From the NCBI GenBank assembly GCA_945885475.1, contig CAMCYR010000025.1, positions 1-43,898 of the forward strand: a stretch of 43,898 nt of DNA. Direction: 5' to 3'. This stretch comes from Chitinophaga pinensis. GTDB lineage: Bacteria; Bacteroidota; Bacteroidia; 2-12-FULL-35-15. Positions within the stretch are counted from its first letter, which is position 1. Each line of letters starts with the position of its first letter. Below are positions 15,524 to 20,895 of the stretch, one piece after another. The notes under the pieces are model-generated. The model ran no database searches. It was given only the letters and a program-made list of their open reading frames with translations, and was not told the origin of the DNA. The translations under genes and the position numbers were made by a program.

Positions 15524-16279
15524 TTAATTTAATTTTTTCAATAAAGCTTCGCAATCTTTTTTTGCTTTCACATCGTCATCATTTGCAGGGATTATCTCCA
15601 GCGCTTTCTTTGCCCAAAGTTTGGCTTCAACTACTTTTCCCATTTCATAATATGTTTGCGCTAATTCATATTGATGAATCATGAACTTCGGTTCAAGTGA
15701 AATGGCTTTCATAAATGATTTTATGGCATCTTCATAAGAGCCGCCAGCCGGCACGCCACCGAAGAATGAATTGATCATTGCTTTTTCTATTGCACTGAAA
15801 CCTGCAATGGTTTTATGCCAGCGGCCTAAAATGTGATGTGCTCCAGAAAGTTTTGGATTTAATGCAATGGCTCTGTCGGCTTCTGCCTTGATCAATTTTG
15901 AATTCGCGATTTTTTGTTTCGAACTGGCATTTTCATTGATCCTGCCAAGTGCCATAGCATAAGCGTAGTGCGCATCAGCACTTGCCTCATTTAATTTAAT
16001 CGCTTTTTTTGCAAGGTATTCTGCATTTTTATAATACTTCATTTTTTCTGCTTCCGGTGCATAATAGTATCCGTATTTTGAATAACAATAACTGGCGTAT
16101 TGTAAATAATTAACATTGCCGGAATCCGATTTTACAAGTGATTGAAAAAGAGGAAATGCTTCTTTGTATTTTAATTCAGTTTTAAGCTTTAATGCTTTTG
16201 TATACTCATCCTCATTAGATTGCGCGATTGAAATGATTCCTGTAAAAAGTAAAAAGCTGATTGCGATTATTTTTTTCAT
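15524..16279 (-). CDS. Secreted TPR protein
   Basis: A 251-residue protein with a Sec signal peptide (MKKIIAISFLLFTGIISIAQ) followed by tetratricopeptide-type helical repeats: KYKEAFPLFQSLV, AEYLAKKAIKLNEASADAHYAYA, AIALNPKLSGAHHILGRWH, AIKSFMKAISLEPKFMIHQYELA and AKLWAKKALEIIP. TPR proteins of this type are protein-protein scaffolds, here in the periplasm or at the outer membrane. It follows the M1 peptidase gene by 34 bases on the same strand, so the two are probably co-transcribed and may act together. No catalytic motif is seen. Confidence 0.85.
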   Translation of the reverse strand: MKKIIAISFLLFTGIISIAQSNEDEYTKALKLKTELKYKEAFPLFQSLVKSDSGNVNYLQYASYCYSKYGYYYAPEAEKMKYYKNAEYLAKKAIKLNEASADAHYAYAMALGRINENASSKQKIANSKLIKAEADRAIALNPKLSGAHHILGRWHKTIAGFSAIEKAMINSFFGGVPAGGSYEDAIKSFMKAISLEPKFMIHQYELAQTYYEMGKVVEAKLWAKKALEIIPANDDDVKAKKDCEALLKKLN

Positions 16280-16313: not shown

Positions 16314-19300
16314 TTAGAATGCCCTGCTAACACCAATCACAAAACGATATTGGATAAAACCCTGATCTGTTGCTGGTATTTTATTTAAGAACAAAGGAAT
16401 ATCAAACCGAATGGTCAATGGATTTACCGTTTGTAATGCCCCGAATTTTTTGATTGTTAATGCGGCTCCGATACCTGCGTCAACACGTAGATCCGACATT
16501 TTTAAAACAACATCCTCTGTTTTATTATAGTTAATGATCCCTGCATCACCAAATAAATAGGTTGTAAGTTTGAAGGTTCTGGTCAGCCAGTTTTGTTTTT
16601 TTATTTTAATGATTCCGCTGAATTCAAGTTCTGCATTTACTGCAGCACCCGTATTTCCTTTGTAAGTATATACAACACTTCCGTCACTTTGTATTTGTGG
16701 TGCCAGATAGCCGGAGTAGCCTCTTAAATTAAGTCCGCCACCATGCTGAAATATATTTGTACTTGCTCCGATTTCCGCCCATGCCGGATCAAAAAATCCT
16801 TGTGAACGGGTGTATTTATTTTCCATCATTTCTTCGGGATTCGCTCCTGCCAAAAATAAGGATGATTCATTCGCCCAATTTTTACCTGTTCCATACTGTC
16901 CATACAATCGGGTATTTAGTAATAAACGCCATATTTTCGTACGGTTGATCACGCTTAAATTCAAACTTTGATACTCGTAATCACTCATGATTGCTGATGA
17001 TCGTAGTCCTAAATTTATCTTTCCGGTACCGGCTGCATAAGAATAGGTATGCTCTATTCCCAGATTAATTGTGTTGTTCAGCTGATTCGGAGTCCATTCT
17101 TTCGGTAACAACAAATAAGGCAGATCATTTAATCCTTTTCGGTACATCGATTTAAAATAAAGATACACTTTGTTTTTTCCTTTGATGTCTTTTCTGTCGA
17201 AACCAACAGTATATGCGTTTAGTCCGTCCAATGCTTTTGCGGAAAAATAAAAGGAAGAACCCTTCATGAATTTATCGGTCGCGGTTCTGTAATTGATCCG
17301 GTAGCTTACATTGTCATACAGGTCTTTTGCATAGTTTTCTGTTGCTGTGTCCAGATAGTTATGGCCAATACCAGTATTAAACCAGACAGTCGCATCAAAA
17401 ATGTGTTTGTAGGCCATGTAATTTCCATTTAGATTTAATCCAACTTTAAGTCCATCATAACCGTTGTACCAAATATCTGGTCTGGCGAATAGCTCGTAGC
17501 TGGTCCAGTCGGAGGGATTATAAATTTTTGAATCGAAGCGATATTTGATAGGAAATTTCTGGTTGTTATTCAGCATATTTACATCCGCCAGGCGTGTACT
17601 CGGGTCAATGATTACGTTTGCAATTCCGCCTTGTACATTTACTGTTGCGGTATATGTTTTCTGAATGTTGTCCCAGCCGATCCAGCGGGGAAGTACTTTT
17701 GATTTTGTTTGTTTTACAAACCAGTTATTTGGAATGTGGTAATAGTATACGCTATCATTTTTTCCAACCACTGCAAAATCAACAGGCATTTGCATGCCTT
17801 TACGTTTGAAGGTGATGTTGTAAACGCCTTCTCCTGTGCCCTTTTTTACTGATTTTACAGAATAGTCAATTGTTTTAGACGTCTCCATCCATTCATCAAA
17901 AAACCAATTTAAGTCAACATGCGTATATTGAATAATCGAATTTCTAAAGTCTTCTACATAGGGGTGAGCAAATTTCCATTGATTAAAATAGTGAGACATG
18001 GATGCCTTAAATAAAGAATCACCAAGAGTGTATTGCAGGTTATACAGCATGGTTGCCGTCTTCATGTAAACCTGTGAATATCCCCCACCATGGCGAATCG
18101 CACCATTGTACATATCCGAATGTAAGCTCATGAATGTTTCCACATCTTTGGCTGCGGAATTCATATATCCATTATACACTTCGCTGTTGCGCACATAATC
18201 CGGCTCCGTAAAGCGGTTTACATAATTTGATTTGGGTACATATTTTATTCTTTCTTTTCCATCGATCCTTTCGTAGGTCCAGTTGGTAATAAATTGTGTA
18301 AATCCTTCATCTAAAGCCGGTCGATACGTTTCGTTAGAACCAACCATTCCAAAAAACCAGTTGTGACTAATTTCGTGAACAAACAGATCTCTGTAGTCGG
18401 GATCAAATCCGCCGCACAAGGTTACCATCGGATATTCCATTCCGTCTTGCGCATCGGCAACAATCATTTTTGAATAAGCATATTGTCCAAAGTCTTCCGA
18501 ATTAACCCGGATGATCTTAGCTGTATATTCTGCTGCGTTCAGCCATCCGATTGCATGTGGTTCCTGAACAAGCGCAACACATCTGATGCCATTCCACTCC
18601 GCTTCTCCGATACGATAAGTCGGGTCAGCAGTAAGAGCAAAGTCGTGTACATTTTCGGCATGAAACATCCATGTTTTTGTCGTTCCATTCGGTTCAATGA
18701 TTACCGACGGCTTTTCATTCCAAGGTTTTTTAGCGAAATTTTTAATATCTAATTTTGCACGCAGGTCTGCTGGTAATACTTCATCCTTATTGATTAGCAT
18801 ACCTGTTGCATCAAGAATGTAATTATTTGGGAAGGTGAATGCAACATCAAATGTTCCGAAATCACCATAAAATTCATGATCCAGATGTTGGTCGGTGTCC
18901 CAGCCGAATTTGCGGTCGTATACCGAAATGCGCGGATACCAGTGAACAACATCGTAGTGTTTGTATCCAAATGCATTGAACATTTTCATTCTGTTCCGTA
19001 TAGAGCCGGTATCAAAATAGGTTTTGAAATTTATTTTGAACGTGATGTTTTCACCTGATTTTACAGGTGTTTTTAGATAAACCTTCAAAACGGTATTGTC
19101 CAATTCCATTTTCAGATCTTCGTTGTTAACGGTGATTTTTGATACAACCGTTCCTAAGCCTTCTTGCTGGTATTTCCCGAATTTTACTTTAATGTTGTTG
19201 TTCTTATAAAGATCTTCCAGGTAAGATCCTTTTGTCTGTGCATTATTGTATAAATGAAAATACACAAACGTTAAGTCATCCGCTGAGTTGTTGTAATAGG

Positions 19301-19514
19301 TCAATTCTTCCGCTCCATCGATAATGTCTGTCTTGTCATCAATAGTTGCATTTATTTTATAATGTACGTCTTGTTGCCAATAACCCTCGAAGGGTTTCCG
19401 GTTTTTCCAATAGTACTGACTGCTGCTGTTTTGGAAATTACTTTCAGGAAACTGTGCAATAGAATTCAGTGCAAATGAAAGCAATGCAAGTGTTATAATG
19501 GTTAATTTATTCAT
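16314..19514 (-). CDS. M1 metallopeptidase fused to an Omp85-like outer-membrane barrel
   Basis: A 1066-residue protein with a signal peptide (residues 1-20). Residues about 40-545 form an M1 (aminopeptidase N type) zinc peptidase: DGMEYPM (357-363) replaces the GAMEN exopeptidase motif, the zinc site is HEISH (380-384) with E403 nineteen residues on, and Y483 is the likely catalytic tyrosine. After a beta-rich linker, residues about 655-1066 alternate in a beta-barrel pattern. They include LRGY (930-933), comparable to the VRGF/Y motif of Omp85 loop 6, then YLFGDAGIIN, RVDAGIGAAL and LTIRFDIPLF, and the protein ends in phenylalanine (VIGVSRAF) as outer-membrane proteins do. The peptidase would thus be tethered to the outer membrane; which side it faces is not known. 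The first half is certain, the barrel class is inference. Confidence 0.9.
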   Translation of the reverse strand: MNKLTIITLALLSFALNSIAQFPESNFQNSSSQYYWKNRKPFEGYWQQDVHYKINATIDDKTDIIDGAEELTYYNNSADDLTFVYFHLYNNAQTKGSYLEDLYKNNNIKVKFGKYQQEGLGTVVSKITVNNEDLKMELDNTVLKVYLKTPVKSGENITFKINFKTYFDTGSIRNRMKMFNAFGYKHYDVVHWYPRISVYDRKFGWDTDQHLDHEFYGDFGTFDVAFTFPNNYILDATGMLINKDEVLPADLRAKLDIKNFAKKPWNEKPSVIIEPNGTTKTWMFHAENVHDFALTADPTYRIGEAEWNGIRCVALVQEPHAIGWLNAAEYTAKIIRVNSEDFGQYAYSKMIVADAQDGMEYPMVTLCGGFDPDYRDLFVHEISHNWFFGMVGSNETYRPALDEGFTQFITNWTYERIDGKERIKYVPKSNYVNRFTEPDYVRNSEVYNGYMNSAAKDVETFMSLHSDMYNGAIRHGGGYSQVYMKTATMLYNLQYTLGDSLFKASMSHYFNQWKFAHPYVEDFRNSIIQYTHVDLNWFFDEWMETSKTIDYSVKSVKKGTGEGVYNITFKRKGMQMPVDFAVVGKNDSVYYYHIPNNWFVKQTKSKVLPRWIGWDNIQKTYTATVNVQGGIANVIIDPSTRLADVNMLNNNQKFPIKYRFDSKIYNPSDWTSYELFARPDIWYNGYDGLKVGLNLNGNYMAYKHIFDATVWFNTGIGHNYLDTATENYAKDLYDNVSYRINYRTATDKFMKGSSFYFSAKALDGLNAYTVGFDRKDIKGKNKVYLYFKSMYRKGLNDLPYLLLPKEWTPNQLNNTINLGIEHTYSYAAGTGKINLGLRSSAIMSDYEYQSLNLSVINRTKIWRLLLNTRLYGQYGTGKNWANESSLFLAGANPEEMMENKYTRSQGFFDPAWAEIGASTNIFQHGGGLNLRGYSGYLAPQIQSDGSVVYTYKGNTGAAVNAELEFSGIIKIKKQNWLTRTFKLTTYLFGDAGIINYNKTEDVVLKMSDLRVDAGIGAALTIKKFGALQTVNPLTIRFDIPLFLNKIPATDQGFIQYRFVIGVSRAF

Positions 19515-20087: not shown

Positions 20088-20136
20088 TTGCAAATGTGCA
20101 AATATATTTAGTATGTTTGTGCTAAATATATTAGCA
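20088..20136 (+). promoter_or_regulatory. Promoter embedded in a palindromic operator of the S24 regulator
   Basis: Arms TGCAAATATATTTAG (20097-20111) and CTAAATATATTAGCA (20122-20136) form an inverted repeat with 14 of 15 matching bases and a 10-base spacer. The spacer starts with TATGTTTG (20112-20119), an exact TAnnTTTG -7 element. A TTG (20088-20090) lies 21 bases upstream as the -33 element. The palindrome ends directly against the ATG at 20137. The layout predicts that the dimeric regulator blocks its own promoter. Confidence 0.7.
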
Positions 20137-20895
20137 ATGTCGAAAATAGCCAAAAACATTAGTGTTCTGAGAGCACTAAAAAAACTATCTCAGAATCAAT
20201 TAGCGGATGAACTGGATATTTCTCGTTCCCGTTTAGGGTCGTACGAGGAAGGAAGAGCAGAACCTCCTTATGATCTTTTGATAAAAATAGCCGATCATTT
20301 TCACATTGCTATTGATGCATTGGTGCGCGGCGATCTTGCAAAAACAGATCCTGAATCTTTATTGGAAATCGGTAAAAATCGGATCCTGTTTCCTGTCATT
20401 GTCGACCGTCAAAATCAGGATATGGTGGAAGTGGTTCCGGCAAAAGCTGTGGCCGGATACTTAACCGGATATGCCGATCCTGAATTTATGGAAGATCTGC
20501 CAATTATGAACCTGCCCTTTAAAATAGTTGGAAAACATCGCGCATTCTCCATAAAAGGTGATTCGATGCCTCCTTTAAAAGATGGAACCTTTGTCGTTGG
20601 TAAATATGTTGAATCGCTGAGTGAGGTAAAAGAGGGACAAACCTATATTGTGCTTACCAAAGAAGATGGAGTTGTTTATAAACGACTTTATCGTGAAGAT
20701 AAAAAATCAACTGATATTTTTCAATTTCATTCCGACAATCCCGTGTATAGTCCGTATGCAGTTAAATCTGAAAACATTATTGAGATTTGGAGTTTTGTCT
20801 GCAGTTTAAATATTGGAGAATTCAAACCTCAGGATCTCAATCTGGAAAGTATGATTCGGTTTTTACAGTCGTTCCGCGTTGAAATGGGGAAATAG
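20137..20895 (+). CDS. XRE-S24 (LexA-like) transcriptional regulator
   Basis: A 252-residue regulator. An N-terminal XRE-type helix-turn-helix covers about 3-60 (SQNQLADELDISRSRLGSYEEGR). A linker carries the likely self-cleavage site A106-G107 (AKAVAGY). A C-terminal S24 peptidase fold has the nucleophile S143 in KGDSMPP and the general base K182 in GVVYKRL. These are the hallmarks of repressors that cut themselves when RecA is activated, or that use the fold for dimerisation only. The ORF is open to an ATG at 20113, but that codon lies in the promoter -7 element, so the ATG at 20137 is chosen. The palindrome just upstream points to autoregulation. Targets other than itself, perhaps the exonuclease downstream, are unknown. 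Confidence 0.88.
   Translation: MSKIAKNISVLRALKKLSQNQLADELDISRSRLGSYEEGRAEPPYDLLIKIADHFHIAIDALVRGDLAKTDPESLLEIGKNRILFPVIVDRQNQDMVEVVPAKAVAGYLTGYADPEFMEDLPIMNLPFKIVGKHRAFSIKGDSMPPLKDGTFVVGKYVESLSEVKEGQTYIVLTKEDGVVYKRLYREDKKSTDIFQFHSDNPVYSPYAVKSENIIEIWSFVCSLNIGEFKPQDLNLESMIRFLQSFRVEMGK

Follow-up and report, generated by a model that had tools for sequence, protein, structure and literature searches.

How does a family M1 peptidase come to share one polypeptide with an outer-membrane β-barrel, and what might the two halves do together? The question arises at one locus of the window, by which we mean the whole 43,898-nucleotide stretch analysed here. An earlier note, made from the sequence alone, had described 16314-19514 as one gene for such a fusion. 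The ORF list bore this out with a single ORF of 1066 aa; the strand had to be corrected to minus, as the plus-strand translation of the same interval is riddled with stops. The residues quoted in that note (H380-E381-I-S-H384, E403, Y483, LRGY 930-933, FGDAG 988-992, RVDAGIG, LTIRFDIP and the C-terminal residue F1066) were all found exactly as given, a pattern well past anything that chance would produce. Along the protein, a signal peptide is followed by M1 domains I-III and a C-terminal barrel (Table 1), and the full-length AlphaFold2 model reached a mean pLDDT of 85 and a pTM of 0.80.

Table 1 Features of the fusion gene and its downstream neighbour (residues refer to the fusion protein; counts are those of the 47-sequence alignment)
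Feature	Position	Strand	Basis
M1 peptidase-Omp85 barrel fusion gene, 1066 aa	16314..19514	-	ORF, full-length homologues, structure model
N-terminal signal peptide, residues ~1-20, no lipobox Cys	19455..19514	-	sequence MNKLTIITLALLSFALNSIA; model helix 3-17
M1 peptidase domains I-III, residues ~38-640	17595..19403	-	PF01433; VIA-align Z 28.6
GMEYP, exopeptidase-type motif, residues 358-362	18429..18443	-	E360 47/47
Zinc site, HEISH (380-384) to E403	18306..18377	-	invariant 47/47
Catalytic Tyr483, with Lys485 two residues on	18066..18068	-	invariant 47/47
16-strand Omp85-type outer-membrane barrel (predicted), residues 673-1066	16317..17498	-	two models, Foldseek, VIA-align
Long loop between strands 11 and 12, residues 880-955, at the Omp85 loop 6 position	16650..16877	-	DSSP, both models
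LRGY, residues 930-933, counterpart of BamA VRGF	16716..16727	-	R931/G932 47/47; E. coli BamA VRGF at 660
FGDAG in strand 13, residues 988-992, counterpart of BamA FWDMG	16539..16553	-	F988/D990/G992 47/47; BamA profile alignment
Strand 14-15 motifs DAGIG (1012-1016) and RFDIP (1036-1040)	16395..16481	-	alignment, conservation
Secreted TPR protein, RMD1-3 type, co-directional, downstream, 34 bases past the fusion gene	15524..16279	-	ORF, Pfam

Sequence searches recognised the peptidase half only. Pfam matched Peptidase_M1 alone on the whole protein (PF01433, E 1.5e-11, residues 376-542), NCBIfam recognised the M1 part and not the barrel, and a PDB sequence search returned one weak M1 match (E 0.012). 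Over residues ~46-640, structural comparison of the M1 half with VIA-align gave tricorn interacting factor F3 as best match (Z 28.6), together with IRAP, LTA4H, ERAP1, the Deinococcus two-domain M1 enzyme and the Colwellia aminopeptidase. The marks of peptidase family M1 are all present, namely HExxH-(18)-E, the catalytic Tyr and the Glu of a GxMEN-type motif that here reads GMEYP. In an alignment of the window protein with 46 full-length homologues, 52-86% identical to it, G358, E360, P362, H380, E381, H384, E403, Y483 and K485 are invariant (47/47), which confirms an intact M1 site for the zinc and the exopeptidase residues alike. The helical domain IV is missing, and in the model the barrel occupies its place.

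When the full-length model was used as the query, the matches listed by Foldseek were M1 enzymes only. Since these fill the list, the barrel was folded and searched separately. The barrel-only model (residues 640-1066) had a pLDDT of 83 and a pTM of 0.81. DSSP counted 11 strands before the LRGY segment and 5 after it in both models, which gives the 16 strands expected beforehand, strand 16 being short and modelled with low confidence each time (last block pLDDT 57-59). All 50 listed Foldseek matches to the barrel alone were BamA or TamA (best E 3.2e-9), with TM-scores against BamA that are moderate, 0.34-0.47 by query length. Likewise, each of the 50 chains listed by VIA-align belongs to the Omp85 superfamily; BamA ranked first (Z 19.0), followed in the list by Sam50, D. 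radiodurans BamA, the Bacteroidota BamA of P. gingivalis and F. johnsoniae, and TOC (Toc75). The Omp85-like character of the barrel is thus upheld by structure prediction. Comparison with PF01103, put forward in the earlier note, did not detect the barrel: this family gave no barrel match at E up to 10 with the protein or up to 1 with the barrels of the 47 members, none of which (0/47) had a credible Pfam match in this region. As Pfam is blind to the barrel, we based the Omp85 assignment on structure and motifs.

The motifs are strictly kept. R931, G932, E962, F988, D990, G992, D1012, G1014, G1016, R1036, D1038 and P1040 are invariant in 47/47 homologues, among them both acidic partners of the RGF arginine, E962 on strand 12 and D990 on strand 13. 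When TamL-type Omp85 proteins from within the genus were aligned to it by hhalign (P 1.7e-5), FGDAG fell opposite FVDAG and IRFDI opposite IRFDI; the genome itself also encodes at least one other Omp85 protein of the TamL type. The match to the single E. coli BamA was weak (P 0.0046), and in it ELEF was paired with SLEF, FGDAG with FWDMG, DAGIG with SAGIALQW and PLTIRFDIP with PLVFSYAQP; the invariant Glu is E962, and the register of BamA E717 falls two positions later, at residue 964. The models support the expectation that LRGY lies in a barrel loop, placing it between strands 11 and 12. Given the superfamily match and the invariant R931, E962 and D990, this loop is presumably folded into the lumen.

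The architecture also bears on where the peptidase would sit. No POTRA domain was found: in the model, residues 551-660 form the all-strand domain III of the M1 fold, followed by a short linker, and a β-α-α-β-β unit was not found within them. Because strand 1 is expected to start on the periplasmic side and neither a POTRA domain nor a long linker intervenes, the M1 domains would hang directly beneath the barrel. Strand parity puts the loop between strands 11 and 12 opposite the N-terminus, so that, under the topology of the superfamily, they would face the periplasm. By analogy, PlpD of Pseudomonas aeruginosa may serve as a precedent, as its patatin domain was located in the periplasm and nowhere else (PMC11116518). 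We consider it probable that the fusion protein works in the periplasm as a zinc-dependent aminopeptidase, tethered beneath the outer membrane through a POTRA-less Omp85 barrel that has retained a role of its own. Kept in this way at the inner face of the membrane, it would trim peptides that either arise as by-products of envelope protein turnover or enter from outside.

The opposite sidedness appears very unlikely. There, the barrel would carry the M1 unit across the outer membrane in a type Vd-like manner to digest external peptides for nutrition, which has in its favour that the same plan, an enzyme placed ahead of an Omp85 barrel, was formerly proposed for PlpD (as recounted in PMC4104836) and that external peptidases are generally useful to Bacteroidota. 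It conflicts, however, with the periplasmic confinement of the PlpD enzyme domain (PMC11116518), with the periplasmic N-terminus of 16-strand Omp85 barrels and with the lack of POTRA domains and of a long linker, and a folded M1 unit of ~600 residues would probably be large for such a pore.

The fusion is widespread within one large class of bacteria. Within the genus, the gene was found in 34 of 36 genomes including that of the window, at 72-97% identity; 29 copies are full length and 5 are in pieces, mostly at contig ends, and the two genomes without it are 82% and 64% complete. A search of a genome collection returned 80 loci whose titles are almost all those of Bacteroidota metagenome assemblies; 46 of them, with the window protein, make up the 47-sequence alignment. 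Across the class, ~100 of 197 evenly sampled genomes (104 by hand count) hold a full-length fused ORF, counted as one ORF spanning the whole profile, and many of the other sampled genomes have only barrel-less M1 proteins of ~615-655 aa. The genome of the window further encodes, on another contig (C17), a paralogue conserved across the genus (L120:535-3579), a 1014-aa M1 protein with a strand-rich C-terminal tail that lacks RGY and resembles the start of the window barrel in its first strands only (P 0.0015). The same genome carries another M1 protein (L122:1066-3600) with an HEVAH site, membrane-spanning segments ahead of it and an open frame of 1233 aa. In a GC-rich relative, a stop-free ORF of 1312 aa lies opposite the fusion gene (L230:649-4587) and is likely a composition artefact.

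Scanning the phylum with the barrel profile revealed that other classes have barrels of 400-465 aa that stand alone; these align with that of the window protein across 361 columns (E 2.5e-68). All 24 of those used carry NLRGY or NIRGY; they were scored by the RGY match alone, the motif-order regular expression being too strict for most. Among the neighbours in three such loci (L183, L185, L187) are pta, ackA, greA and a NUDIX gene, and in two of them (L183, L185) also a caspase-like lipoprotein with SH3-like and caspase-like regions. Since none of the three loci inspected has an M1 neighbour, we discarded a first interpretation of these stand-alone barrels as halves of split M1-barrel genes.

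In 13 of the divergent loci, yihY (PF03631) separates nadC from the fusion gene a short way downstream. One genus (g112) has the order rlmH-nadC-yihY-fusion in three species (L252, L253, L255) and its yihY-fusion part in a fourth locus (L254). In two more species of this genus (L227, L228), the gene after nadC-yihY encodes a 441-aa barrel that has a signal peptide but no M1 part, and its start overlaps the yihY stop. Similarly, the fusion neighbours nadC in four species of another family (f44; L256-L259), and in one member of that family the neighbour of nadC is a 606-aa protein (L229:1603-3420) that combines the barrel with an unrelated N-terminal region of ~215 aa, for which no Pfam family match was found. 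In a barrel tree built with FastTree, the two 441-aa barrels group with the fusions of their genus (support 1.0), and the 606-aa protein falls near the fusions of its family (support 0.70, the weaker of the two placements); all three lie inside the fusion clade, apart from the stand-alone clade (support 1.0). Together, the locus slot and the barrel tree indicate at least two losses of the M1 part in which the barrel stayed behind at the same locus. The role of a POTRA-less Omp85 protein thereby becomes testable by comparing related species.

Since the loop-6 lock (R931, E962, D990) is kept and at least two lineages have apparently lost the peptidase but not the barrel, the barrel is probably more than an anchor. 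It probably plays a part of its own in outer-membrane assembly or transport, to which the peptidase would be an accessory. If it were instead an inactive anchor whose signature residues persist for folding alone, it should vanish with its enzyme, yet it outlives M1 in two lineages. We regard this explanation as quite unlikely, even though an R/D lock may in general serve barrel stability, POTRA domains are lacking and the paralogue in the same genome joins M1 to a strand-rich tail without RGY.

The persistence of the barrel without M1, the fully kept Omp85 signature and the frequent linkage to yihY, which encodes an inner-membrane protein, would also suit an assembly factor with built-in quality control, in which outer-membrane proteins would be folded or inserted by the barrel and stalled substrates broken down by the peptidase, comparable to BepA at the BAM complex. 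This seems unlikely, as M1 enzymes are in general mostly exopeptidases that act on peptides and not on misfolded proteins, no POTRA domain is available for receiving substrates and the cell has the TamL-type protein besides. On a broader and doubtful reading, to which we give some room, the barrels would form an unrecognised, Pfam-invisible and POTRA-less Omp85 subfamily, widespread in Bacteroidota, that performs assembly or transport with YihY as its inner-membrane partner, and M1 would be a detachable substrate-processing module. A literature search on the function of YihY gave nothing usable.

Pairing of the membrane-tethered peptidase with the secreted TPR protein had been suggested as a nutrient or quality-control device. 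The two genes are linked in the genus of the window and in two further loci (L067, L071), one of which (L067) unites both arrangements in the order rlmH, nadC, yihY, fusion, TPR; the TPR gene was absent from the flanks of the other divergent loci examined. As the linkage hardly extends beyond the genus of the window, the pairing is weak as a general device and we did not retain it. The TPR protein (15524-16279) scores best against a family with a eukaryotic name, RMD1-3 (PF21033, E 5.7e-25). On the other side, the fusion gene adjoins a divergently oriented gene for a LexA/CI-like regulator that combines HTH and S24 peptidase domains (20113-20895).

Each half of the protein has well-known relatives. 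With the M1 aminopeptidases (tricorn factor F3, ERAP1, LTA4H, Colwellia ColAP and the Deinococcus two-domain M1), the fusion shares domains I-III, HExxH-E, the catalytic Tyr and the exopeptidase Glu, whereas it has a barrel instead of the helical domain IV and GMEYP for GxMEN. With BamA, TamA and TamL it shares the fold and the motif order (RGF/Y, F-x-D-x-G, AG in strand 14, PL in strand 15), and it differs from them in having an enzyme in place of the POTRA domains. PF00149, which we take to be the calcineurin-type metallophosphoesterase family, differs in fold and chemistry from M1 (PF01433). The 'Metallo' subfamily of Omp85 proteins resembles the fusion in placing a metal-dependent enzyme domain on an Omp85 barrel, but this domain is PF00149, termed a metalloprotease domain there (PMC4104836, section 10), and the 'Omp85-metalloprotease' of that section is therefore no precedent for the fusion protein.

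In the same survey, Heinz and Lithgow (2014) searched with PF01103 and PF03865 and distinguished ten subfamilies of the superfamily, of which none is described with an M1 domain (PMC4104836). Given that PF01103 misses the window barrel, this family may have been out of range of the survey. Pfam, and as far as we can tell the published ten-subfamily classification too, has missed a barrel family that a large share of one class possesses. The 'noNterm' Omp85 proteins likewise consist of a POTRA-less barrel, the form taken by the stand-alone homologues found here; unlike the fusion, they have no enzyme domain. In the open-access literature we found no paper naming an M1-Omp85 fusion, in agreement with the earlier note, which could name no precedent for M1 as passenger.

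The closest counterpart in plan is the PlpD-type patatin-Omp85 protein, in which an N-terminal enzyme and a C-terminal 16-strand Omp85 barrel are likewise joined in one chain. The likeness to the patatin type drawn in the earlier note therefore stands; its label 'autotransporter' is outdated, since the PlpD patatin domain is periplasmic (PMC11116518). The fusion carries an M1 zinc peptidase where PlpD has a patatin lipase, lacks POTRA domains between enzyme and barrel, and occurs in Bacteroidota. With M1 and not patatin as its N-terminal domain, it is a further kind of enzyme-Omp85 fusion, PlpD-like in plan and not a member of the PlpD type, and adds the M1 metallopeptidases as an enzyme class to the short list of Omp85 fusions.
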